Source of the DNA: Methanococcus vannielii SB
Lineage (GTDB): Archaea; AGJL01; Methanococci; Methanococcales; Methanococcaceae
NCBI RefSeq assembly: GCF_000017165.1
Contig: NC_009634.1
Span: 62,001-126,000, forward strand
Length of the DNA: 64,000 nucleotides
Direction: 5' to 3'
The position numbers and the translations under genes were made by a program. The notes below the pieces were generated by a model. That model searched no databases. It had not been told where the DNA came from and saw only the letters and a list, made by a program, of their open reading frames with translations. Of this stretch, positions 43,487 to 63,615 are shown piece after piece (within the stretch, counting starts at the first letter, position 1; the number at the start of each line of letters is the position of its first letter).

Positions 43487-44776
43487 TTAATTTTTCTTCA
43501 AAATATACACAAATTCTTTTCCCGCTTTTTTCTTTTCCAAATATCCTAAATCGACTAAATGGTTTAAATCCGCTCTTCCGGTTGCATATGCGACATTATA
43601 CGTTTTAACAATTTCTTTAATTGTAATTATGTTTTCAGGAGTTTTTAAAATTTCTTTTAAGATTTCAGCCTGTCTTAAATTAAGATCTTCGGATTTACTT
43701 ATTAACTTTAAAACTTCTTTCTGTTCAGCCTGTTTTATGCTTAAATAATTCAAGATTTCATCAAGCGATTTACAGATGCATTCCAGGTTGTATTTTATAA
43801 AATACGTTAAATCCCCTTTATCGTCTTTATAAAAAGTATCTGATTCTGTTTTTAAATAAGCGTCCCGATACTGCCCCTTTGATCCATTAATTACTCTTGA
43901 AATTGCCATGTATTCAAATAACCAGTAATCATTCTTTAAAAGGTACCAGTAAAATAGGGATCGTGCAGTTCTCCCGTTTCCATCATTAAATGGGTGGATA
44001 TATCCAATTAAAAAGTGGATTATAATTCCTTTTATTATTGGATGGATGAATTTGTCTTTTGAATTTGAAAATTCGCAGAATTCTTCCATCAATTTTTCAA
44101 CTAACCCATATTCGGGCGGTTGATGAAGAAGTGTTCCATCAGTCGAATAAACTGCAATTTCATTATCTTTTCTAAATTTTCCAACAAATTCGGGATCTTC
44201 AAGCGTTCCATCGGTTATAAGTTTATGAATTTTTAATATTTCTTCGACTGAAAATTCTTTGTTTTTTATTGTAAGGATGTATTTCATTGTATTGTAATTA
44301 TTAAGGATCATTTTTTGATCTTTATTTTTCGGCTTTCGGCCTTTTTTTAGCATTTCCTTAGCTACATTTCTCGTAGTTACTGCCCCTTCAATCTGGCTTG
44401 ACGCAATTGCTTCTTCCATCAATGAATCTATAATATATCGTTCTTTTTCGCTTGGAATGGATTCGAGTGCAGTTGAAAGGTTTCCAGAGGCTGATTTATC
44501 GAGGGTATGTAACTTTTCAATGAATTCATCGATTAAAGAATAATTAAATATCCAGTTTCCAAAATGTATCGATTTTAAATTATTCATTCTAAACATTTTC
44601 ATGATTGTCCAGATTATAACTGGATCTACTGGAAGTGTTTTATGTTTTAATTCATTAAAATGAAGATACTTTTCATTGTATTTTTGGACAATATCAATTA
44701 TTTCCCGATTTGGTACGTATTTAAGTGCAATTTCAATGTTTTCGTTTGAATATTTCGGAATTTCTGGAAGTTTCAT
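43487..44776 (-). CDS. Fic-domain protein (putative AMP transferase) with C-terminal winged helix
   Basis: A 429-residue Fic protein. The active-site loop is HPFNDGNGRTARSLFYWYLL, a full HPFx(D/E)GNGR motif, so transferase activity is expected. An N-terminal inhibitory helix (ASSQIEGAVTT) marks a self-inhibited class II Fic. A winged helix at the C-terminus (ETIKEIVKTYN-like region near residue 380) suggests DNA binding. Fic proteins modify target proteins, usually by AMPylation, and may act as toxins. Upstream lies a cluster of TATCAA/TTGATA boxes. No separate antitoxin is adjacent. Confidence 0.88.
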   Translation of the reverse strand: MKLPEIPKYSNENIEIALKYVPNREIIDIVQKYNEKYLHFNELKHKTLPVDPVIIWTIMKMFRMNNLKSIHFGNWIFNYSLIDEFIEKLHTLDKSASGNLSTALESIPSEKERYIIDSLMEEAIASSQIEGAVTTRNVAKEMLKKGRKPKNKDQKMILNNYNTMKYILTIKNKEFSVEEILKIHKLITDGTLEDPEFVGKFRKDNEIAVYSTDGTLLHQPPEYGLVEKLMEEFCEFSNSKDKFIHPIIKGIIIHFLIGYIHPFNDGNGRTARSLFYWYLLKNDYWLFEYMAISRVINGSKGQYRDAYLKTESDTFYKDDKGDLTYFIKYNLECICKSLDEILNYLSIKQAEQKEVLKLISKSEDLNLRQAEILKEILKTPENIITIKEIVKTYNVAYATGRADLNHLVDLGYLEKKKAGKEFVYILKKN

Positions 44777-44780
44777 AAAC

Positions 44781-44876
44781 TATCAACTATCATTTTCTAT
44801 CAATTCATTACATTTTGATAGATATTGATATTATCACATATATCATTTTCTATCAATTCATTACATTTTGATAGAT
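44781..44876. promoter_or_regulatory. Direct repeats with TATCAA/TTGATA boxes upstream of fic
   Basis: A 36-bp sequence occurs twice, perfectly, at 44788-44823 and 44841-44876 (53-bp period). Each copy contains CTATCAA and TTGATAG as inverted arms 11 bp apart. Extra TATCA and TGATA boxes lie between and around the copies (for example 44781, 44829 and 44931). The density suggests a multi-site operator, perhaps for the Fic protein through its winged helix. Confidence 0.7.
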
Positions 44877-44967
44877 TATATAAATCAAAGATTTATTAAC
44901 ACAAAAAACTCTGTTTTTTAGTGTATTGATAGTTCAATATCAGCAGTTTCTAAAACATTTAAATACC

Positions 44968-45020
44968 TTTACCTATAGATAGGTAAATAATTGTATTTTA
45001 TTTACCTACGTACAGGTAAA
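44968..45020. promoter_or_regulatory. Twin palindromic operators TTTACCT-N6-AGGTAAA
   Basis: Two sites with identical 7-bp arms, 44968-44987 (spacer ATAGAT) and 45001-45020 (spacer ACGTAC), start exactly 33 bp apart, about three helical turns, and lie immediately before the AAA_14 ATPase gene. The identical arms and different spacers show that the arms are the conserved element. Confidence 0.75.
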
Positions 45021-45036
45021 TATTTGGGTGAGAAAT

Positions 45037-48762: not shown

Positions 48763-48878
48763 GTGATATCCAGCTCCGACCCGCATTTTATTAGTCGGAT
48801 TACGGGTTACCGACAGAAAGATCCGGCCCGCATTTTATTAGTCGGATTACGGGTTACCGACAGAATGCTGGATATCAC
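48763..48878 (-). ncRNA. Candidate CptI-type antitoxin RNA: two 47-nt pseudoknot repeats
   Basis: Two direct repeats with a period of 47 bp; 39 bp are identical (48780-48818 and 48827-48865). In each, read on the minus strand, the segments come in the order GTCGG, CCCG, CCGAC, CGGG, so the first pairs with the third and the second with the fourth: an H-type pseudoknot. The array is enclosed by a perfect 12-bp inverted repeat (GTGATATCCAGC at 48763-48774 and its complement at 48867-48878). Its position directly before a CptN-like toxin gene on the same strand is the layout of type III toxin-antitoxin loci, where the toxin cuts the repeat RNA and is inhibited by it. Confidence 0.75.
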
Positions 48879-48998: not shown

Positions 48999-50511
48999 TT
49001 ATCCATTTGATAGATCATTCAATAATTTTAAACCTTTTTTAGTAATTCGATATTTTTGTTTTGAACTTGTTATTTTATCAGGAATTGTTAATTCAATTAA
49101 GTTATTTTCCAATAAATTTGAAATTGCCTGTTTGAATCGTTTAGTTCTAGACTTCAACCCTATTTCAGACAATATTTCCGAACTCGACATTTCAATATCT
49201 TTTACTACGAGTAGTATTTCATCTTCAGCCCGGGTCTTGACTTGGGTCTTGACTTGGGTCTTAGCTTGGGTCTTTTTTATATCCTCAATAAATTCTGGAT
49301 GAATTCTTAGCCGGGCGATAAATTGTGTTCTTTCATCATCAGTTATAAATTCAGGTTCCGGGGATCCATTGTTTTTTAAAGCATGTCTTATCTTCCTAAA
49401 ACCTGTATTTTTACCTTCTGTAAGTTTAAATTCTTTTAAAAAGTCACCAATTCGCCTATTTCTATACCTTTTAGAAATAACAATATCATCATTAAGATTA
49501 TATTTATTTAGTGGTGGAAGTGGTCCCGGATAACTTATTATATCAATTCGATCCGTTTCAATTCTAATTTCAATTGGTGCATCGATTTCGTAACTTTTAT
49601 GATATACTGCGTTTACGAGTGCTTCTTCAATTGCTTCAAAGGGATAAGAATAAATTCGTTTTGATTCTGCGATTCCCGGGATTTTTTGAACTCTTTCACG
49701 AATTGCTATGCTTTTTATATAATTTAGTGAAAGCCGTATCTGTGAAACCAAATCTCCATCAAACACATCTTCATCAAATTTATCGCCAATTTCATCGTAA
49801 AATACAGTAACTTCAATCCACGGTGTTTTGATGAATTTTTTAGGATTTGTTGAAAAAAAGCAGTAAACCAATGTTTTTTGGTTTCAAATATTCTTTTGGC
49901 CCATCTACGATATTTAGGCTTTTACATAACTCTTCAAATTTCAAAATTTCTGGATCAAGATTAGAATTTATTTCTTTTAAATATTGTTTAATTAAATGTA
50001 AATTTAAATCATTAATTGACGCTTTATGGTTTATCTGATCATCATATGGAATTTGATTAGACATTCCAATTAATTCTTTTTCATCTTCATGTTTTGCGAT
50101 AACAGTTGATGAGTTTCGCCTGATGTAATATTTATATTCTGAATTTTTACCGAGACTTGTTGGTGCCTTATATGGTCTTGCAGGACCTCCAGGGCAGGCT
50201 ATAACCAATACTGTCTTATTTTTGTAAATTATGGGTTCTACTACTGGAAAATATGGATAATGGATTTTATTGGATAAACCAATCATTTTTTTCAAAATAG
50301 TATCAATTTCAGAAGGATTTACTCCGATAACTTCTTTTGTTTTGTCGTGAATCCCGATTATAATATATCCGCCGCCCCAATTGTTAAAATCATTTGCAAA
50401 TGCACACATTGTATGCATAACATCCTCTGGATTAAATCCCCGTTTTAATTCTAACCGTTCTTCTTCGATTAAATTAGTTTCAAGTAATTGAGATATTGGG
50501 ATAGGCAGCAT
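48999..50511 (-). pseudogene. AlbA_2/AAA_4 (Schlafen-like) protein split by a homopolymer frameshift
   Basis: Two overlapping frames form one protein of about 500 residues. The first (50511-49840) has the AlbA_2 domain: EEERLELKRGFNPEDVMHTM, WGGGYIIIGIHDKTKEV. The second has the GHKL/AAA_4 part (PFEAIEEALVNAVYHKSYEI, GKNTGFRKIRHAL) and a winged helix (SRTKRFKQAISNLLENNLIE, TIPDKITSSKQKY). The join is a run of seven A (plus strand 49853-49859); losing one base would read LLLFSTNPKKF in one frame. A KTQV-type repeat links the domains. It resembles the intact gene at 18350. It may be phase-variable, inactive, or a sequencing error. Confidence 0.75.
49232..49273 (-). repeat. 12-bp repeats encoding the KTQV linker
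   Basis: About 3.5 units of 12 bp (plus-strand GGGTCTTGACTT, one variant TTAGCTT), encoding KTQAKTQVKTQVKT before the winged helix of the split AlbA_2 gene. This is at the same position as the QDTQ repeats of the homologous gene at 18350. Confidence 0.85.
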
Positions 50512-50795: not shown

Positions 50796-51632
50796 TTATT
50801 CCTTTAGAATTTTCATGCCCCAAATAACCTCTAAAACTTTAAGTTTTTTGTACATTTTTGTACTTTTAAATTCTTCGTAAGAATATGAAAGTCTCAGGGT
50901 TCCATCAAGGATAAGTTCATTAATATGTTCTCCCCTTTTGTTTCCATACTTTTCTTTGAATAAAATACTCAAAGCTTCTACGAGATCGTGTCCAAATGAA
51001 ATTTGAAACGGATCATAGCTTTTGGACTGGAATAACGAAAGTATATTGGGGAGAATATTGTCTACAGTTAGCCCATAAGCATAGTTACTATTTTTAAGAA
51101 CTAAATCAAGGTAAGATTTTAAATCAAAGCCCAAGTTTTGGTCCATGAATTGTTTAAGTTTTATTTCCCTGTATCTTAAATATTTTCGATTTTTCAAAGA
51201 CCAGAGTTTTGCACAGCCCACTTTTTTTGTAATGTCGAATGCTTTGTTTAATATGTCGTTTTTAGAGTATCTTTTTAGCCCGAATTCTTCATAAATTCGG
51301 TCAAAACATTCTGAATTTATTATTAATGTTTCAAGGTCGTGAGTGTCTGTTATAATAATTCCGTCTTCAGTTGGCGCATTATTTAAAATATGGGATAAAT
51401 CTGCATCCACTATCACAAAAATTCCTTTAAATTCTTTTTTAGCTTTTTTAAATACATTTAATACATTAGTTTTCCCATAACAGTCGATTGTATCTATTTC
51501 GTCCAAATTTAAAAATTTTTCATAAACTCTAATGTCAGTACTCCCTTCAAAAAGAGCAGGTATTTTTTTGTGTGCTCTTCTAGCCATCTTGATGCCGTTT
51601 AATACATCATCATCAGTCAGATGCTTTCGCAC
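50796..51632 (-). CDS. DUF4435 TOPRIM-like protein, AriB-like
   Basis: A 278-residue DUF4435 protein. TOPRIM-type acidic residues are Glu29 in ALFEGSTDIRVYEKF and Asp76/Asp78 in IFVIVDADLSH; TDTHDLETLI follows as in this family. In PARIS defence, AriB is such a protein, held by the ATPase AriA and released as an effector when phage anti-restriction proteins appear. The start is GTG 51632, and its first base is the last base of the TAG stop of the ATPase gene, with GGTGAT just upstream, so the two are coupled. Other ATPase-DUF4435 pairs exist, so PARIS is a likely but not certain name. Confidence 0.72.
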   Translation of the reverse strand: MRKHLTDDDVLNGIKMARRAHKKIPALFEGSTDIRVYEKFLNLDEIDTIDCYGKTNVLNVFKKAKKEFKGIFVIVDADLSHILNNAPTEDGIIITDTHDLETLIINSECFDRIYEEFGLKRYSKNDILNKAFDITKKVGCAKLWSLKNRKYLRYREIKLKQFMDQNLGFDLKSYLDLVLKNSNYAYGLTVDNILPNILSLFQSKSYDPFQISFGHDLVEALSILFKEKYGNKRGEHINELILDGTLRLSYSYEEFKSTKMYKKLKVLEVIWGMKILKE

Positions 51633-52903
51633 TAGAAATCACCTTCAAAATATTCTTCATCCTCTTCATCGTCACCAAGTCCCACGGTTAAATCCCATCG
51701 GTTGTGGATAATTTGTGGGGAATGTGTTGCAATTATTATTTCAAAATTTTTAATGGCATTTATTTCAATTAAATCCCTTAAAAACTGCTGCTGCCATGAA
51801 ACGTGAAGTGAAAGTTCCGGTTCATCGATTAAAACGACTGAATTAGCATTTATATTAAACAATAATTCGTAGAGTAAAATTATTTCATGCTGCTCCCCTG
51901 AAGAAAGGTTTGAAGGAGTTAATATTTTGCCATTTGAACTTTTAAAGACGAATCCTTCTTTTTGGTCAATTACCAATTCTTTATCTATGAATTTCGAATT
52001 TACCATCCGTTTTAATAATTCAAGTTTTACAGACAGGTCTTCAAATACGTCAAGTTTTTTATTTGCATCCCTTAAATAAACTGAAAACAGGTCCCTATCG
52101 CTTTCATCAATTTTTAAATTATTTAAATCAAATTCTTCATCAGGATCAATTATCGCATCATCATTTGGATCCAAAATACCCAAATTTACAAATTTTTCAC
52201 GTCTTTTATCGAGATTTACGAGTTCCTCAGTAATTTTTTCTGAAGACAGCCGGTTTTCGATGCTGCAACGAATCACATTTATCGGGAAATTTTTATTCAA
52301 CTGTTCCGAGAGGTTACCGTATTTTTTAAGTCTTTCTTCGATTTTTTTAACAAGGTCTTTTGAATACTCTAAAACCGTTAAATCAAGAGATTTTGTTTTT
52401 TCGTACTCTGAAATTTTATTCAGCCTGTTTGTGTGGATAAAATAAATCTTACAGGAGTTTAAAAGTTCTTTGAGCCATTCTGGAAATTCTTCTTTTTTTT
52501 CACTTAAATTGATATTTTTTAAAACATCAGCCAGATTTGTATCTTTGCTATTTTCAAAATATCCTATAAGTTTTTTCAGATCATCAATATTCGTTTTTGC
52601 AGTTAAAAATTTGAAAGAATGGTTTAACTTTTTTGTTTTTGAATAAAAATTGTATTCAATAGAATCATCATTTTTTAAAACGTTTAAAACAGAATTATCT
52701 TCAAAATGTACGTTAAATTCTTTGAAAATAAAATTTTTCAGTTTTTCGGGATTATCGTTAAAGCAAGAGTATATCATTTTTAAAAAAGTGGTTTTCCCAA
52801 TCCCATTTACCCCGTGAATGATTGAAATTCCTTCATCGTTTAGTACAATATCGTGATCGATTGTATCGAAAAGGTTTTTTACAGATATTTGGTTTATTTT
52901 CAT
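51632..52903 (-). CDS. ABC-type AAA ATPase, AriA-like
   Basis: A 423-residue SMC/ABC-like ATPase: Walker A GVNGIGKTTF (residues 31-40), a coiled middle region, signature LSSGEQHEIILLYE, Walker B VVLIDEPELSLHVSW and switch IIATHSPQIIHN. The C-terminus ends in a short acidic tail (DDEEDEEYFEGDF). It is of AriA length and is fused by a one-base overlap to the DUF4435 gene. In PARIS, AriA forms the sensing scaffold. The start at 52903 follows GGGATAATT. Confidence 0.75.
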   Translation of the reverse strand: MKINQISVKNLFDTIDHDIVLNDEGISIIHGVNGIGKTTFLKMIYSCFNDNPEKLKNFIFKEFNVHFEDNSVLNVLKNDDSIEYNFYSKTKKLNHSFKFLTAKTNIDDLKKLIGYFENSKDTNLADVLKNINLSEKKEEFPEWLKELLNSCKIYFIHTNRLNKISEYEKTKSLDLTVLEYSKDLVKKIEERLKKYGNLSEQLNKNFPINVIRCSIENRLSSEKITEELVNLDKRREKFVNLGILDPNDDAIIDPDEEFDLNNLKIDESDRDLFSVYLRDANKKLDVFEDLSVKLELLKRMVNSKFIDKELVIDQKEGFVFKSSNGKILTPSNLSSGEQHEIILLYELLFNINANSVVLIDEPELSLHVSWQQQFLRDLIEINAIKNFEIIIATHSPQIIHNRWDLTVGLGDDEEDEEYFEGDF

Positions 52904-53265
52904 AATTATCCCGATTCCAATTGTTTTTTATTAAATTAAATAAGGGGAGTTATAATTATTTATATAATTCGTTTTATTTTTTCTAAGAATTTTTGATATC
53001 CTGCATATTCTCTATTCTTTTTTTAAATTTCTTTAAAAAATCATTAAACCCCGAATCAAGTCCCCGCGGGCAATTACCAATTATTTTAATGTGAAAACAC
53101 CATTTACTTTTTCAAATGTCGGGTAAATTGGGGCATAACGTTGTTTTCATTTTGAAATCTTAAAACCAATTATTTTTAAATAAAAACCTGTAAAAATGTT
53201 GAAAAATTGATAATTTTTATCCAGTGGTTTTTAAAACTGTAAAAACATGAGGAGATATTCAAAAA
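52904..53265. other. Gene-free AT-rich stretch
   Basis: No coding frame of credible length or codon use is seen on either strand. The only marked element is a CCCGCGGG palindrome near 53083-53091, unusual in this AT-rich DNA. Confidence 0.5.
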
Positions 53266-53689
53266 CATATATATAGAATCGAGTTCATACATGGATGTGC
53301 AAACAGTTATACGTGGCTTGAGAAATTTACATTAAAAGGCACGAAATCGGCCCTTGATAGTCGAGTTCTTGTTTTTCAATTTCAGGTTAGTATGTCACGT
53401 TTTACGAAAAATAAAAGCTAGATTCAACAGTTAGATTTTTGCCACGGGTAAGAATAATTGATCCACTAAAATAAGGATCAGACGGAAGGGGTACTCCCTC
53501 CAATCGAACCATTGGTTCGAGGGACACAAAAATCTATGATTTTTACTGTTTCCAAACCCAATCGAATCTTCAATTCAATTAAAGGGAGTTTTGCAAATGC
53601 ATTGCATTTGTAAAATTATGGAAAGCCATGCTTTCCACCTATTCTAAGAACCGTAGGTTCTGAATCTAAAAATTAGGAAGTGATTATTT
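53266..53689 (+). ncRNA. Candidate structured non-coding RNA or long leader
   Basis: A TATA-like CATATATATAG at 53266-53276 predicts a transcript starting near 53297. The following 390 bp hold no credible gene, are richer in G+C than their surroundings, and contain a TGATCC/GGATCA hairpin (53459-53480) and then a series of short hairpins up to the start of the gene at 53690. It could be an independent RNA or the leader of that gene. Transcription is not shown by sequence alone. Confidence 0.4.
53484..53661. repeat. Array of short hairpins with constant geometry
   Basis: Four perfect hairpins have 7-bp stems and 3-nt loops but unrelated sequences: TCGAACC-ATT (53504-53520), AAAAATC-TAT (53528-53544), CAAATGC-ATT (53594-53610) and GGAAAGC-CAT (53620-53636). 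A fifth is 6-3-6, AGAACC-GTA (53647-53661). Two imperfect ones lie at 53484-53501 and 53560-53580. Centres are 24-34 bp apart. Confidence 0.85.
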
Positions 53690-54049
53690 TTGAAATATGT
53701 AATTTCTTTTGGAACCGTACCTGGATACGGTTCAAATGACGGATCAGTAGTGGCTGAAAAAGTTGCTGAAGATTTAAAAAACATATTATTTAAAATACAA
53801 GAAAAAACCGAAGTTTATCCTTCAGGTGTTTTATCACTTGGAAAAGCGATATATTCAACAGAATGGGGCTGCCCGATAGGCGGTGAGGATATATTTGTAT
53901 ATTCTGGTTCACATAACCCTGAATTTTCAGACATTGAAAAATGGCAGGATGCAGTTTTGTTACTCGCAAAAGAAATTAAATCCCATTTTAAACAGTCAAC
54001 AGTTACAATAGACTGGATAGAATCAAAAATAACTTATTTAAAAGACTGA
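53690..54049 (+). CDS. Unknown 119-aa protein upstream of the Cmr operon
   Basis: A compact soluble protein beginning MKYVISFGTVPGYGSNDGSV and containing YPSGVLSLGKAIYSTEWGCP and GGEDIFVYSGSHNPEF. I do not recognise the family. The start is TTG at 53690, supported by a strong AGGAAGTGAT ribosome binding site at 53674-53683. It follows the hairpin array directly and precedes cmr1 by 288 bp on the same strand. The intact frame and strong site argue it is real; a link to CRISPR is only positional. Confidence 0.7.
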   Translation: MKYVISFGTVPGYGSNDGSVVAEKVAEDLKNILFKIQEKTEVYPSGVLSLGKAIYSTEWGCPIGGEDIFVYSGSHNPEFSDIEKWQDAVLLLAKEIKSHFKQSTVTIDWIESKITYLKD

Positions 54050-54337: not shown

Positions 54338-55351
54338 TTGCCTAAATTAGAAATTACATTAAAACAGCACACTCCGATGATCCATTTTCAGCATGATCAA
54401 GCGGGTGCAACTTTAAGGGCTACTGAATTGAAGCCAAAACTCGATAAATTTTTGATAAAATACGTTTTTAATGATTCTAAAGAAAAATATAAAGAATATT
54501 TAATAAATGGGACTGAAAAAGCATTAAATTATAAGGTAAAAATTTCTTCAGAAGGCTGGAGGCAGGGGGAAATCCAAAAATACGAAAAAGAGTACGACGC
54601 ATACTTTGGAGATTTACCCGGGCTAACTCTTTGTGATTCTGTAACGTTATGTTTTTTTTCTTATGATAAAGAACTACTTAAAAATATAGAAAAGATATTA
54701 AATCCTTTTTTCGCCGTGACAAATTTTGGGACAAGACAAAACAAAGGTTTCGGTTCTTTTTACCCCGAAGGTGCAGAATACGAGTTTGAAAAGGATTTTA
54801 AAGAGTTTTTTAAAGACCGATTATTATTCGAGAAACATGAACGAACAGAGGAACAGTGCCTGATAAAAATAAATAAAAATTATAATTCAATGAAATCGGG
54901 ATTAAATGGCGAAAACTCATTCTTAGTTGAATATTCAAAGACAAAAAACTTTTCTGGGGAAAAAAAACTAACCAATATGTTATCAAAGGGCTATGTTCAA
55001 AACGTACCTGGCAATGAGAAATACCTCCGTGCAATGCTTGGTTTAGCTGAAAATTATTCATATGATAATGGGAACACTACTGTAACTATCAAATCCACTC
55101 GTGAAAATGATGAAAAAATAGACCGTTTTAAATCCCCGATAACATTTAAGGTCATCAATAAAACGATATATGTGATTCCTGAAGAAATTCCTGAAGAAAT
55201 GTATGACGCAGAATTTGAATTTAAAAATGGAAATAAATATATGCGATTAAAAACACCGTCCAAAAATGAATTTAACTTAGCTGAATTCTTAAAATCAGAA
55301 GAGTACGGTTTGGTAAGTTTAGGATATACAAAAATAGGTGGGGACAAATGA
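54338..55351 (+). CDS. cmr1: Type III-B CRISPR RAMP protein Cmr1
   Basis: A 337-residue RAMP protein that caps the 3' end of the Cmr backbone and recognises target RNA. The start LEITLKQHTPMIHFQHDQAG, then GATLRATELKPKLD, is like the divergent Cmr1 group; VTNFGTRQNKGFGSF is the glycine-rich RAMP loop. The start is TTG 54338 after GAGGGGT. Its stop overlaps the cmr2 start (ATGA). It is the first gene of a six-gene operon whose other members are easily recognised. Confidence 0.82.
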   Translation: MPKLEITLKQHTPMIHFQHDQAGATLRATELKPKLDKFLIKYVFNDSKEKYKEYLINGTEKALNYKVKISSEGWRQGEIQKYEKEYDAYFGDLPGLTLCDSVTLCFFSYDKELLKNIEKILNPFFAVTNFGTRQNKGFGSFYPEGAEYEFEKDFKEFFKDRLLFEKHERTEEQCLIKINKNYNSMKSGLNGENSFLVEYSKTKNFSGEKKLTNMLSKGYVQNVPGNEKYLRAMLGLAENYSYDNGNTTVTIKSTRENDEKIDRFKSPITFKVINKTIYVIPEEIPEEMYDAEFEFKNGNKYMRLKTPSKNEFNLAEFLKSEEYGLVSLGYTKIGGDK

Positions 55352-56934
55352 CTAAATATATCGGGCTTACGATCGGGCCAATTTACGAAACATTGAATAA
55401 TGCCAAAAAAACGGGTGCACTATGGGGTTCAAGTTATATTTTTTCATATATCATGAAAAATATAATCAAAGAGTTTAAAGAGCGGGAAATAATCGTTCCA
55501 TATTGTGTAAATGAAGGAAAAGAATATGAAAAATATTATGAAAAAGAACTCGGTGCAGGGGTATTTCCAGACCGATTTATTTTCAAATCCGAAAATAGGG
55601 ACTACGAAAAACTTGAAAATATAATTGATAAATTATTAAACAAAATTTCAGAAAGTATTTGGGAGGATATCCAAAAATCGGGATACAAAAATCTGGATAA
55701 TACTAAAATATCCGAGTTTTTAAAACAATATTTTAAAATTTATTATCTTGAAAAAGACGTGCCTAATGGAAAAAATCCGATATTTGAGTTAAACAAATAT
55801 TTGGATGTTTTAGAGTTACAGCCAAAATATGTTACCCAATCTAATATTTATACAAAAGAAGAAAAAGTCTTTGAAAACCCATTGGAACTATTTTTTCACA
55901 ATAGAATAATAAAAGAGAGTTTTTTAGCCGAAGATTGTTTTAAATCTGAAACCGACGATTCTAAAGATTTTAGTAGATGGATCAAATCTATTCCTGAACT
56001 TGCATCAGCAGAACTAAAAATAACTAACCCTGATGAATATATAAAACTAGAAGAACTTTCAAATCCGAAAAATTTCACTGATGATAACGATTTGGAAAAA
56101 AAGATTTACAGTAACTTAAAAAAATACCCCAAATACTTAAAGTATTATGCTGTAGTTCAGGCTGACGGCGACAATATGGGAAAAATTATTTCTAAACTTA
56201 ATTCCGCCGATGATTTTAATAATTTTTCGAAAAAGCTATTTGAATATGCTGTAGATTCATCTAAACTAATAAAAGAATACGGGGGACTGCCAATTTTTGC
56301 AGGTGGTGATGATCTTTTATTTATTGCACCTGTAAAAAACGGAGAAAAAACCATTTTTGATTTAGTTGGTGACATAGATAACCGTTTTGAAGAAATTTTT
56401 GATGTTGAGATAAAAGATCCTGAAATATCACCGTCTCCTTCGCTTTCATACGGCATTTCAATTAATTACTACAAACACCCGCTTTACGAAGCCCTTTCTA
56501 ATGCAAGAACTCAACTTTTCGGAGTTGCAAAAGAATATTCAGGTAAAAATGCAGTTGCGGTAAACGTTAGAAAACACAGTGGTCAGACATTTGATTTGTG
56601 TTTCGGAAAAAATAAAGAATCGTATAAAAAATTTAATGAATTATTGAATGTAACTTTGAAAAATTCTGAAGAAAGTGAAAAAATACTAAATTCAATAAAA
56701 TTCAAACTTTCAAACGAAAAGGCCATTGTAGACGAAATAGGGAAGGATGAAATCAAATTAAAAAATTACTTTGAAAATTCATTTAAAAAAGATATTCATA
56801 AAAATTCTGATTTGAATAAAATTATTTCTTACGTGAATGGTGTTTACGGGGACGAACTTAAAGACCCGATTAAAAAGATAGACGCTTCCTTGCGGTTTTT
56901 AAGTTTCTTAAATGAAAAAATGGGGGCGGAATAA
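55348..56934 (+). CDS. cmr2: Type III-B Cas10 (Cmr2) without HD nuclease domain
   Basis: The 528-residue polymerase-cyclase subunit. The second palm carries GGDD in LPIFAGGDDLLFIAP (about residues 315-325), and the first acidic motif is in VVQADGDNMGKI (about 268-279). It begins directly with a palm-like region (YIGLTIGPIYETLNNAKKTG) and no N-terminal HD domain is seen, so it should not cut DNA. With CorA and DHH genes nearby, the product is predicted to be SAM-AMP rather than cyclic oligoadenylate. It overlaps cmr1 by 4 bp and cmr3 by 1 bp. Confidence 0.9.
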   Translation: MTKYIGLTIGPIYETLNNAKKTGALWGSSYIFSYIMKNIIKEFKEREIIVPYCVNEGKEYEKYYEKELGAGVFPDRFIFKSENRDYEKLENIIDKLLNKISESIWEDIQKSGYKNLDNTKISEFLKQYFKIYYLEKDVPNGKNPIFELNKYLDVLELQPKYVTQSNIYTKEEKVFENPLELFFHNRIIKESFLAEDCFKSETDDSKDFSRWIKSIPELASAELKITNPDEYIKLEELSNPKNFTDDNDLEKKIYSNLKKYPKYLKYYAVVQADGDNMGKIISKLNSADDFNNFSKKLFEYAVDSSKLIKEYGGLPIFAGGDDLLFIAPVKNGEKTIFDLVGDIDNRFEEIFDVEIKDPEISPSPSLSYGISINYYKHPLYEALSNARTQLFGVAKEYSGKNAVAVNVRKHSGQTFDLCFGKNKESYKKFNELLNVTLKNSEESEKILNSIKFKLSNEKAIVDEIGKDEIKLKNYFENSFKKDIHKNSDLNKIISYVNGVYGDELKDPIKKIDASLRFLSFLNEKMGAE

Positions 56935-58022
56935 TGTCGAATTATTTGGTAAAATTGACTCCGATAGATAGGTATTTTTTTGGCGGGAATGAAACATTTG
57001 GGGATGGAAAAAATACGAATTATTTCGTTAGGTCTAAAGAATTTCCCCAACAGACAAGTCTTCTTGGAATGATAAAAAAGGAAATTTTAATCATTACTGG
57101 AGTTTATAAAGAAGATTTTAAAGAATATAGGGAAAAAGAATTGGAAAACACCATTGGAAAAACCTTTAAATTGTCCGATTCAAATCAAAATCACGGAATA
57201 ATAAATTCTATTTCTCCGTTATTTTTGCTTGATAATGAAAATAACATATATTATAAAGCACCCCTCGACTATGGGCTGACTTTTGTAAAATCTGACGGTA
57301 AATGTAATTTTGGAAATACTGAAAAAGAGTATTTACCTTTTTTTGAAAATTACGATGCTAAAAAAGGCCTTCCAAACAAAATACTTTCTACTAAAATCTT
57401 GTCAAATAGAACAGATTATGAACTGTCGGAAATTTTTAAAGAGGATGTTAGAATTGGAATAAATAGAAAGAATGGGGAAGAAGATGGATTTTATAAACAA
57501 ATATTCTACAGGCTAAAAGAAGGACTTTCTTTTGCATTCGTTCTGAATATTGATGAAAATAATGAACATGCAAAAAAATTTAAAATTGAAAATGACAGTC
57601 ACAAAAACGTTTGTTATATTGGTGCGGATTCTTCAGGCTTTAAACTCGAAATAAAAGAAATTAATGACCCATCCAGTTATATTATGAAAAATTTTACTGA
57701 GAATGATATTCAAAAAGGCGAAACTTCCTCAAAAAAATTTAAAAGACTTTTGCTTGTTTCTGATACATTCTTAAAAGAAGAAGATTATTGTGAAATTTTA
57801 AATCTTTCTGAATTTATTATTGGAGAAACGGAAAAATTTAGAAACATGGATACGAAATCCAATAAAAAATCTGAAAAATATGTTTTCTTAAAACGAAGTT
57901 CAGTAATCTATTCAAAAACTGAAAATTCAGAAAAAATCAAGGAAAAAATAGAAAACGGATCAAAATGCTACGAAAATCTAAATAAAATAGGGTATAACGT
58001 TTTAAAAATTTTGGGTGAGTAA
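56934..58022 (+). CDS. cmr3: Type III-B CRISPR protein Cmr3 (Cas5-like)
   Basis: A 362-residue RAMP protein that binds the crRNA 5' handle beside Cas10. The N-terminus VKLTPIDRYFFGGNETFGDG, then FPQQTSLLGMIKKEIL, is characteristic of Cmr3. The start ATG 56934 shares its A with the cmr2 stop TAA. The gene is intact, of normal length and inside the operon. Confidence 0.9.
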   Translation: MSNYLVKLTPIDRYFFGGNETFGDGKNTNYFVRSKEFPQQTSLLGMIKKEILIITGVYKEDFKEYREKELENTIGKTFKLSDSNQNHGIINSISPLFLLDNENNIYYKAPLDYGLTFVKSDGKCNFGNTEKEYLPFFENYDAKKGLPNKILSTKILSNRTDYELSEIFKEDVRIGINRKNGEEDGFYKQIFYRLKEGLSFAFVLNIDENNEHAKKFKIENDSHKNVCYIGADSSGFKLEIKEINDPSSYIMKNFTENDIQKGETSSKKFKRLLLVSDTFLKEEDYCEILNLSEFIIGETEKFRNMDTKSNKKSEKYVFLKRSSVIYSKTENSEKIKEKIENGSKCYENLNKIGYNVLKILGE

Positions 58023-58023
58023 A

Positions 58024-58845
58024 ATGGATGTTAAAAAAGAACTATACATAATAGAAGCAATTACAAACATGCACGTAGGCAGCGGGGATGCCAATTTTGG
58101 AATAATCGATAAAACAGTGCAAAGAGATGTTTTAACGGGTTTTCCAGCAATATATTCTTCAAGTTTAAAAGGTTCGTTAAGAGATTACTTTGTTGGTTTA
58201 AAATCTGAAAAAACTGGCATAAATGACCTTATAATCGATCATATTTTTGGAAAAGAAGGGAACAATGAAAACGGAAGTATTCAAGGAAAATATAAATTTT
58301 TCGAAGCAAAACTTCTTGGACTTCCTGTTAGAAGCAATAAAAGACCATATTTAATTGCAACGTGTCCACAAATTTTAAATGATTTTTTAGAATCTGCAAA
58401 AATTTTCGCATCTGAATTATCTAATGAAATAAGTGATTTAGGAACTATTGATTTATTGAACGGGGAAATTTTTGTTAATGGCAAAATTGATGACGAAATT
58501 ATCGAAGGACATAAAGTTGAATCGAGTGCAAATTTATGGGAGAATTTAGAGAAACTTCTTGGGAATGATTTTGTAATATTTAGCAATGAAAAATTTATGG
58601 AAATATGTGCTGAACTTCCGGTAATTGCAAGAAACAAACTTGACAATGGCGAAAGTAAAAACCTATGGTACGAAGAGATAATTCCAAGAAAAACAAAATT
58701 TTATTTTGGCGTTGATCTCGGTAGTGGTGAGTACAACAATAAATTTACAAAAAATATCGATGATAAAATTGTTCAAATTGGCGGAAATGCAACAATTGGT
58801 TATGGATTTGCTAAATTAGAGAACTTAAGTAAAGTATTGAAATAA
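58024..58845 (+). CDS. cmr4: Type III-B CRISPR backbone protein Cmr4 (Cas7)
   Basis: A 273-residue backbone subunit that forms the crRNA filament and cuts bound target RNA. It shows AITNMHVGSGDANFG and TGFPAIYSSSLKGSLRDYF. Asp29 in FGIIDKTVQRD aligns by context with the catalytic Asp of Cmr4, so target RNA cutting is expected. ATG 58024 is preferred to GTG 58015, which is inside the GGGTGA ribosome binding site. GNATIGYGFAKL is the C-terminal glycine-rich loop. Confidence 0.92.
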   Translation: MDVKKELYIIEAITNMHVGSGDANFGIIDKTVQRDVLTGFPAIYSSSLKGSLRDYFVGLKSEKTGINDLIIDHIFGKEGNNENGSIQGKYKFFEAKLLGLPVRSNKRPYLIATCPQILNDFLESAKIFASELSNEISDLGTIDLLNGEIFVNGKIDDEIIEGHKVESSANLWENLEKLLGNDFVIFSNEKFMEICAELPVIARNKLDNGESKNLWYEEIIPRKTKFYFGVDLGSGEYNNKFTKNIDDKIVQIGGNATIGYGFAKLENLSKVLK

Positions 58846-58866
58846 AAAACTTAAATTGGGGATAAA

Positions 58867-59256
58867 ATGGGTAAAAAAGAAATTGAAAAATATATTCCAC
58901 AAGCACTTCAACTTATAGGTGAACACATCGCTTCAAACGGAAAGGTAGATAATGAATATTCTGGTTATATTTCATCATTTGGAGCTTCAATAATCCAGTC
59001 AGGATTAATTCCCGCAGTTGCTTTTTACAGCCAGCCTGGAAAAGAAGGTAATGTCAAAGATAATAGAAATAAATTAATGAATGTTATTTACTGTCTAATC
59101 CATGAAAAAGATAATTGTGACAATAAACTTTTGAATGACGTTATTTCGGGTACAGTATCTAAAGAAGAAGTACTTGATGCTGCAATAGCAACAAAACTTG
59201 CACTCAGGACATTTGAACGTGTTGAACCTAAAAAAGGCGAAAACAATGACAAATGA
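58867..59256 (+). CDS. cmr5: Type III-B CRISPR small subunit Cmr5 (Cas11)
   Basis: The 129-residue helical small subunit, which lines the target strand. It contains YIPQALQLIGEH, YSGYISSFGASIIQSGLIPA and the end of a four-helix bundle, as in Cmr5. It starts at 58867 after GGGGAT and overlaps cmr6 by 11 bp. Confidence 0.9.
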   Translation: MGKKEIEKYIPQALQLIGEHIASNGKVDNEYSGYISSFGASIIQSGLIPAVAFYSQPGKEGNVKDNRNKLMNVIYCLIHEKDNCDNKLLNDVISGTVSKEEVLDAAIATKLALRTFERVEPKKGENNDK

Positions 59257-60250
59257 TTCAAACTACGTCGGAAACATTGGTTATTACTACCAAAAACTCC
59301 AATTTTTAGGAAACGAAGGGGAAAAGAAAGAATGGGGAGAGATTTCAAAAGGAAAAGATAATCGGGATAAAATCGAAACGTTGAAAAAAGAAATCGAAAC
59401 AAACGAGGAAAAACTTAAAAAAATTTCATTTCATTTTGAAAATGAAAAGATATTGAACTATAAACCAGAACACAATAACTACGACTTAAAGGAAATAAAA
59501 ATTGAACGATTAATATTTAAAACAACTTATCCTGGACTTTTGGTTGGTTCAGGTTTAAACCATGAAGTGGGTGCAGATGAATTTAAACTCGGATTTTCAT
59601 TTGATTACACGTCAGGACTTCCAGTAATCCCAGGATCATCAGTAAAGGGGGTTTTGAGAAGTGCATTTCCAAATGACGAAAAAGATCCTAAATTTCAATA
59701 CATAAAAGATAAGTTAGCCACCTTTGGAGTAAATTCTGAAGATATTAACGTTTTAGAATTAAAAAAAGAAATATTTGATGGAATAAAAGAAGAAAATGGC
59801 GATAAGAATATTCGATTTAATGAAAGAGATATATTTTTTGATGCCGTTTTAACCGATAATAACAATGATAAACATATATTTGGGGAAGACTATATCACAC
59901 CGCATTCTGATCCACTAAAAAACCCAATTCCCGTGAAATTTTTGAAAATTTTACCTGAAATTGAATTTGAATTCAGATTTTTATTAAATGACAGTAAAGT
60001 AAATGATAAAATAACTGCAAACGTTAAAAAAGAATTATTTAAGCAGATTTTATGTGATCTGGGAGTTGGTGCAAAAACTAACGTTGGATACGGAAATCTG
60101 ATTTCCACAAATTTGTCTTCGAAAAATTTGGACAAAAAAACAGAAAAAAGTGCCGATAAAAAAACAGCCCCTGAAAAAGCAGGTGCCGATGAAACCTCAT
60201 GGCAAGATGAATATACGAAAAAGACCGGAAAAAAAGTTAAAAATAAATAA
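59246..60250 (+). CDS. cmr6: Type III-B CRISPR RAMP protein Cmr6
   Basis: A 334-residue RAMP protein at the head end of the filament. The core TTYPGLLVGSGLNHEVGADE, then YTSGLPVIPGSSVKGVLRSAF, is typical of Cmr6, with LGVGAKTNVGYGNL as the glycine-rich loop. ATG 59246 (MTNDSNYVGNIGYY) is preferred; the frame is open further upstream only because it overlaps cmr5. The C-terminus is a charged lysine-rich tail. Its stop codon abuts that of the convergent corA-like gene. Confidence 0.9.
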   Translation: MTNDSNYVGNIGYYYQKLQFLGNEGEKKEWGEISKGKDNRDKIETLKKEIETNEEKLKKISFHFENEKILNYKPEHNNYDLKEIKIERLIFKTTYPGLLVGSGLNHEVGADEFKLGFSFDYTSGLPVIPGSSVKGVLRSAFPNDEKDPKFQYIKDKLATFGVNSEDINVLELKKEIFDGIKEENGDKNIRFNERDIFFDAVLTDNNNDKHIFGEDYITPHSDPLKNPIPVKFLKILPEIEFEFRFLLNDSKVNDKITANVKKELFKQILCDLGVGAKTNVGYGNLISTNLSSKNLDKKTEKSADKKTAPEKAGADETSWQDEYTKKTGKKVKNK

Positions 60251-62964: not shown

Positions 62965-63615
62965 TTAATTAACTTTTTTAACCGTTCCAAATCCCCTAGA
63001 AACGCTTTTTCCAAGCCCCAAATAATTAGGAATACTAAAATTACACTCAAAAGTCCCCTTAAATCCAACCATGTTTTTATTTTTAAATTTAACAGTTATT
63101 TCGTCCAAATTCAAGTCTGACAATATTCTTTCAGAAACAGTGTGTTCAAATCCTTTTGCCATTGAAAGAATATTTCCTGCCAAAATTCTTTTTAAAAGCT
63201 CTTCTTTTTCAAAGTTATCAGAATCGGCATATTTTTTAAAATTTTCCTGATTTATCGGCATCCAAGGTACTTTAAATTCGTAAGTATTCATTTTTGATAT
63301 TCCAAACTCTGCTTTTTCATTTATCACTTCGATTTTAGAAATATAGGTTTTTCCATCCACGTCAATGGAATCTTCGTTAACTGCGGTTTCTTTTAATAAA
63401 ATGGCCCCTTCAGAAATTCCGACTAAATGGGGAATTTTATCGATTACCTTATACTGGATTTTTGGATAGCCGTACAAAAATGATTTATTTTCGTGATTGT
63501 GAAACATCAATTCGCTTGAATACTTGTTTGCAAAGTAACCCCTAACTTTTTGGCTATCGCTCATTTTAAGTCTTAAATCCGGATATTTTATAATTAAATA
63601 ATCTAAAACTGCCAT
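62965..63615 (-). CDS. cas6: CRISPR RNA-processing endonuclease Cas6
   Basis: A 216-residue RAMP nuclease that cuts CRISPR precursor RNA in the repeats. The C-terminal glycine-rich loop is PNYLGLGKSVSRGFGTVKKV, and KGTFECNFSIPNY precedes it; LLKRILAGNILSMAKGF is also typical. Histidine residues near the N-terminus (FHNHENK) may be catalytic but this is not clear. The start at 63615 follows GAGGAA. It leads the minus-strand unit cas6-DHH-corA. Confidence 0.85.
   Translation of the reverse strand: MAVLDYLIIKYPDLRLKMSDSQKVRGYFANKYSSELMFHNHENKSFLYGYPKIQYKVIDKIPHLVGISEGAILLKETAVNEDSIDVDGKTYISKIEVINEKAEFGISKMNTYEFKVPWMPINQENFKKYADSDNFEKEELLKRILAGNILSMAKGFEHTVSERILSDLNLDEITVKFKNKNMVGFKGTFECNFSIPNYLGLGKSVSRGFGTVKKVN

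Follow-up and report, generated by a model that had tools for sequence, protein, structure and literature searches.

Gene content of the locus

The stretch of Methanococcus vannielii SB DNA analyzed here (64,000 nucleotides, hereafter the window; coordinates are positions within it unless marked as genome coordinates) carries a type III-B CRISPR locus with a row of short hairpins in the intergenic region to its left. The genes and signals that frame this row are as follows.

50796-52903 (-): AriA/AriB homologues (PARIS-like pair), reading away from the row; PADLOC
53675..53684 (+): AGGAAGTGAT, probable ribosome-binding site of the lyase gene; read from the sequence
53690..54049 (+): SAM-AMP lyase homologue, 119 residues (PADLOC family Mvol_0529); phmmer, Foldseek and PADLOC
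54338..60250 (+): cmr1-cmr6, type III-B effector operon; PADLOC
62965..63615 (-): cas6b, candidate processor of the stray repeat described below; Pfam Cas6b_N/Cas6b_C

The gene between the row and the cmr operon, which the original prediction had called unknown, encodes a SAM-AMP lyase homologue, a predicted signal-degrading enzyme. Its product matches SAM lyase/SAM-AMP lyase in a phmmer search of the PDB (E 8e-22), and the top Foldseek matches (E 1.9e-10, TM 0.83) are solved structures with 39-41% identity; its AlphaFold model (pLDDT 78.5) matches the Clostridium botulinum enzyme (TM 0.83, 39% identity), so that the protein resembles solved enzymes of this class in both sequence and fold. PADLOC lists the Mvol_0529 family with the remark "DNA binding C-ter.," for which the predicted fold gives no support, and it assigns members of this family to 3 of 394 genomes, all Methanococcus. 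A scan of the genome contigs with the lyase protein gave no match. The start codon lies 29 nt past the end of the hairpin row, and the AGGAAGTGAT sequence before it is one that we take to match the anti-Shine-Dalgarno.

Beyond cmr1-6, on the opposite strand, lie corA, a gene for a 250-residue protein in the NrN position, and cas6b. This is the same gene set as that of the CorA-associated type III-B CRISPR with SAM-AMP signaling, for which the portion of PMC10600005 available to us names M. vannielii with corA and NrN; that portion gives a SAM-AMP lyase for Clostridium only, whereas M. vannielii has a lyase homologue in addition to the NrN-position gene. The locus may accordingly hold two different SAM-AMP-degrading enzymes. 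Further left of AriA/AriB are an AlbA_2/Schlafen-domain gene (49840-50511), a 47-bp tandem duplication whose copies are 97% alike (48775-48865), and a gene for a Fic/DOC-domain protein with a helix-turn-helix (43487-44776, -) that is divergent from an ATPase gene at 45028.

A row of perfect short hairpins

The plus strand of 53484-53661 contains four nonoverlapping perfect hairpins (stem of at least 7 bp, loop of 3 nt) and one 6-3-6 hairpin, together with two less perfect hairpins at 53484-53501 and 53560-53580.

53484..53501 (+): h0, imperfect hairpin GGAAGG/CCCTCC; folding
53504..53520 (+): h1, perfect 7-3-7, TCGAACC-ATT-GGTTCGA; direct read and folding
53528..53544 (+): h2, perfect 7-3-7, AAAAATC-TAT-GATTTTT; direct read and folding
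53560..53580 (+): h3, imperfect hairpin AATCGAAT-CTTCA-ATTCAATT; sequence read
53589..53615 (+): h4, perfect 7-3-7 core CAAATGC-ATT-GCATTTG at 53594-53610, lengthened to 12-13 pairs with one G-U; direct read and folding
53619..53637 (+): h5, perfect 8-3-8, TGGAAAGC-CAT-GCTTTCCA; direct read and folding
53647..53661 (+): h6, perfect 6-3-6, AGAACC-GTA-GGTTCT; direct read and folding

Direct reading found the four perfect hairpins and the 6-3-6 hairpin where the original prediction had placed them. Its description of four 7-3-7 hairpins holds for h1, h2, and the core of h4, but the hairpin at 53619-53637 is really 8-3-8. Extended outward over 53589-53615, h4 has a total of 12 Watson-Crick pairs and one G-U pair on the plus strand, and the mismatch in h3 reads as C-A on the plus strand and as G-U on the minus strand. 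The stem sequences, earlier described as unrelated, are only partly so: all five stems share a closing pair of the form 5'-C-NNN-G-3' and an A at the fourth pair counted from the loop. These shared features were spotted post hoc, and so the probability that five hairpins of matched G+C content would all close with C (7e-5) is likewise a post hoc figure.

The row is a real, nonrandom structure that chance does not explain. In a shuffled-sequence control and a genome-wide hairpin scan, two of the checks that had been proposed along with the original prediction, the cluster stood out both times. Dinucleotide shuffles of the 178-bp stretch gave an expectation of 0.025 hairpins with a stem of at least 7 bp and a loop of 3 nt, against 4 observed; none of 3000 shuffles of 53484-53661 had more than one such hairpin, and so none reached four. 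Across the whole single-contig genome (1,720,048 bases, scanned in 20-kb pieces), the row is the sole 200-bp stretch with four nonoverlapping hairpins of this kind; the runner-up stretches had 3 each and consisted of A/T-only low-complexity DNA or included a tRNA arm. The folding energy of the stretch was also extreme relative to shuffles (z = -3.98 on the plus strand and -4.55 on the minus strand), and one 140-nt segment of the row ranked 14th among 24571 genome windows in G+C-corrected folding.

On the plus strand the perfect hairpins are mutually compatible, with pair probabilities of 0.91-1.0 for four of them and 0.57-0.86 for the last when flanks are included; within 500 nt of context the five values are 0.95, 0.91, 1.0, 0.96, and 0.57. 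On the minus strand h2 is lost in folding, and the perfect hairpins are less compatible there. The imperfect pairs point to both strands, since the G-U in h4 fits the plus strand, whereas h3 and h0, along with a 16-bp pairing that includes G-U pairs, fit the minus strand, and the strand is therefore not settled by the sequence.

The constant closing C-G pair and the A at -4 are what would be expected if the palindromes were double-stranded DNA operators for one dimeric regulator with the consensus RAANC-N3-GNTTY, positioned ahead of the genes for the lyase and for Cmr, and four of the five palindromes do fit RAANCNNNGNTTY. We regard this as improbable: perfect complementarity extends to the variable positions, although operator function would not require it, the site centers have no even phasing, and the gene downstream encodes a lyase homologue and not a DNA-binding protein. 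The motif by itself is also common, with 19 occurrences in the window against 10.7 expected.

A stray CRISPR repeat at the edge of the row

The original prediction did not mention any CRISPR repeat, but a degenerate one adjoins the row, and elements resembling a CRISPR leader precede it.

53259..53275 (+): leader-like promoter element TCAAAAACATATATATA (BRE/TATA-like); pattern search and alignment
53435..53442 (+): ATTTTTGC, matching the functional CRISPR leader in sequence and in spacing ahead of the repeat
53448..53483 (+): degenerate solitary CRISPR repeat (psi-R); cmscan DR64 and alignment

Rfam was run at gathering and at relaxed thresholds. There were 0 matches in the window at the gathering threshold, and the sole useful lead from the relaxed cmscan was CRISPR-DR64 at 53448-53483 (22.7 bits, E 0.37 over 4227 families, and therefore about 9e-5 for DR64 alone). 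The four repeats of the functional array, which lies 12 kb away just beyond the end of the window (genome 127424-127680), are exactly DR64. Psi-R is identical to this repeat at 26 of 36 aligned bases, keeps the inner TGATCC/GGATCA stem, and is the best match to it outside the array in the whole genome; it ends at 53483, and the hairpin row begins at the very next base. The repeat alone has a p of 8e-4 in shuffles. The leader end and repeat together give an alignment score of 51, compared to a maximum of 43 in 6000 shuffles of the intergenic region and to 43 for the highest-scoring of all other genome positions outside the array.

Further upstream, the TCAAAAAC-TATATATA element lies 172 bp before psi-R; in the leader of the functional array, TCAAAAACTATATATA stands 169 bp ahead of the first repeat. 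The pattern TCAAAAAN{1,2}TATATATA occurs 3 times in the genome, and two of these occurrences are the 53259-53275 site and the functional leader, which is suggestive of a leader-like promoter element. A full-length alignment of the two leaders looks good, but once the TATA element and the junction with the repeat are set aside, the remaining similarity is not significant (p 0.23), and we therefore limit our claim to the repeat and its junction.

A repeat-like sequence that lies outside the array and is related to the local CRISPR repeat is what characterizes the RNAs of ectopic CRISPR repeats, and we conclude with moderate confidence that the element is most like this group, which includes s479 (PMC8155600), CreA (PMC9458426), and scaRNA (PMC8730458). 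It is not a functional CRISPR array, as the psi-R locus does not have at least two repeats with spacers. The s479 RNA of Haloferax volcanii is a Cas6-matured small RNA encoded between CRISPR and cas genes with an almost complete CRISPR repeat (PMC8155600). It resembles the M. vannielii element as an archaeal RNA next to CRISPR/cas genes with a repeat in its precursor, although the RNA considered here is a predicted one. The system of s479 is type I-B and no hairpin row is described for it (PMC8155600), whereas the M. vannielii repeat is more degenerate and its context is type III-B. The 8-nt 5' handle of s479 is identical to the crRNA handle, but that of psi-R is altered (GATCAGAC versus ATTGAGAC). 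CreTA/CreA likewise has an ectopic degenerate repeat near cas genes (PMC9458426), but the M. vannielii element has no second psi-R, no target promoter match, and no recognized toxin RNA, and it has a hairpin-row body. By these specific features the psi-R element is neither a CreA nor an s479.

The position of psi-R next to a cas locus, as in CreTA (PMC9458426) and s479 (PMC8155600), would also suit a crRNA-like guide RNA of the CreA (cas-repressing RNA) or s479 kind, with psi-R supplying the 5' handle and a spacer-like guide starting at 53484. CreA has a spacer-like sequence that partly matches a nearby promoter and, in most cases, a second degenerate repeat. The first spacer-like bases here have no 8-nt seed match in the local cas region and no match of at least 11 nt elsewhere in the genome, and a further degenerate repeat that seemed likely by eye where the row ends on its 3' side is at chance level (p 0.76). 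A guide in this position would moreover be locked inside a hairpin, and we consider a guide function of the row improbable.

A possible CRISPR-derived leader RNA

We tentatively favor, at somewhat less than an even chance, the reading that the hairpin row is part of a CRISPR-derived leader RNA on the plus strand, before the lyase gene. The excess of hairpins and of folding supports this reading, as do psi-R with its ATTTTTGC junction and its end directly before the row, the occurrence in this locus of cas6b and of a functional array whose repeats are of the psi-R type, the TATA element at a near-equal distance from the repeat, and the identity of the lyase gene; s479 offers a precedent. The plus strand is favored because the perfect hairpins are compatible on it and less so on the minus strand and because psi-R, the TATA element, and the downstream genes share its direction. 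The altered handle of psi-R, the lack of significant similarity over the remaining leader, and the imperfect pairs that point to both strands count against this reading.

In the scheme that we infer, which runs from transcription and Cas6 cutting through selection on structure to an effect on expression, the leader-like promoter element would start a plus-strand transcript that passes through the solitary degenerate repeat into a hairpin body. This body, made up of six to seven short hairpins, would be located in the 5' region of the lyase mRNA and ahead of cmr1-6. Psi-R would serve, or would once have served, as a Cas6b cleavage site, and the hairpin body might guard the resulting 5' end, whether this belongs to the mRNA or to a released small RNA, and adjust the expression of an enzyme predicted to destroy the SAM-AMP alarm. 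A Cas6b cut in psi-R would link crRNA processing capacity to lyase expression. A bolder form of this proposal, which we consider quite unlikely, is that a CRISPR leader and repeat came to act as promoter and as a 5' region cut by Cas6 for a SAM-AMP switch-off gene, with the hairpin row as the RNA body, such that the Cas6/crRNA machinery would set the duration of the type III alarm.

A cluster of transcription terminators is highly improbable as an explanation of the row. The genes on the left (50796-52903, -) point away from it, as do the right-hand genes on the plus strand, and therefore no adjacent gene reads into the row. Archaeal termination relies on T-runs, and no terminator-like hairpin with a T-run was detected within the row. 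Clusters of hairpins do act as terminators in bacteria (PMC8355165).

Relatives and the origin of the row

Searches for homologues of the row at the DNA level in 6 other genomes of the genus, in genomes of the family, in 35 other genomes of the phylum, and in phages, plasmids, and viral contigs returned nothing beyond short A/T-rich or chance matches. Two relatives have the lyase gene after cmr6 without the row. Both this arrangement and the lack of homologues that could display covariation count against a leader RNA, and inspection of their type III locus and CRISPR leaders revealed no similar element.

Absence from relatives would be expected of a young feature, and the perfect stems with free sequence are also consistent with template switching between nearby strands at replication, which would have written the hairpins in noncoding DNA beside a decayed CRISPR locus with no function as a set. 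The available portion of PMC8794818 describes template switching as making perfect stems in one step, and the hairpins in it share the perfect stems and free sequence seen here, but that portion describes no clustered row of five with equal loop length and closing pair. Template switching does not predict the common C-G closing pair and the A at -4, and nothing comparable exists elsewhere in the genome, so that the process would have to have acted five times in 180 bp and here only. The original prediction had offered selection on RNA structure and a mutational process as alternatives. We favor the structural one, in the proposed form of hairpins that form together on the plus strand, because the row follows a leader-like element and a repeat and precedes a coding start; the mutational one we retain as unlikely.

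The setting of the row, with a stray CRISPR repeat at its edge and a lyase homologue downstream, is newly recognized. RNAs built from stray CRISPR repeats are difficult to find, and their total number has been stated as an open question (PMC8730458). A CRISPR-derived leader RNA here, if true, would add a type III-B example with an unusual multihairpin body ahead of a gene whose product is predicted to degrade the signal; if mutation wrote the hairpins, template switching would have left a rare and dense record of itself at this site.

Other hairpin regions

Outside the window, genome positions 1402275-1403450 contain a tandem repeat with a unit of about 98 bp, present in about 12 copies. Each copy carries hairpins of differing sequence (GAAAGGG..CCCTTTC and GGGATAAC..GTTATCCC) as well as a segment similar to the 3' end of neighboring tRNA genes. 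Within the window, 44798-45030 was considered as a sister of the hairpin row and rejected, as it consists mainly of a duplicated 32-bp sequence and two palindromes that resemble each other. This region, before an AAA_14/DUF4143 ATPase gene, has the 32-bp duplicate ATTTTCTATCAATTCATTACATTTTGATAGAT and two 7-3-7 hairpins; its palindromes, both TTTACCT..AGGTAAA, are probably operators.
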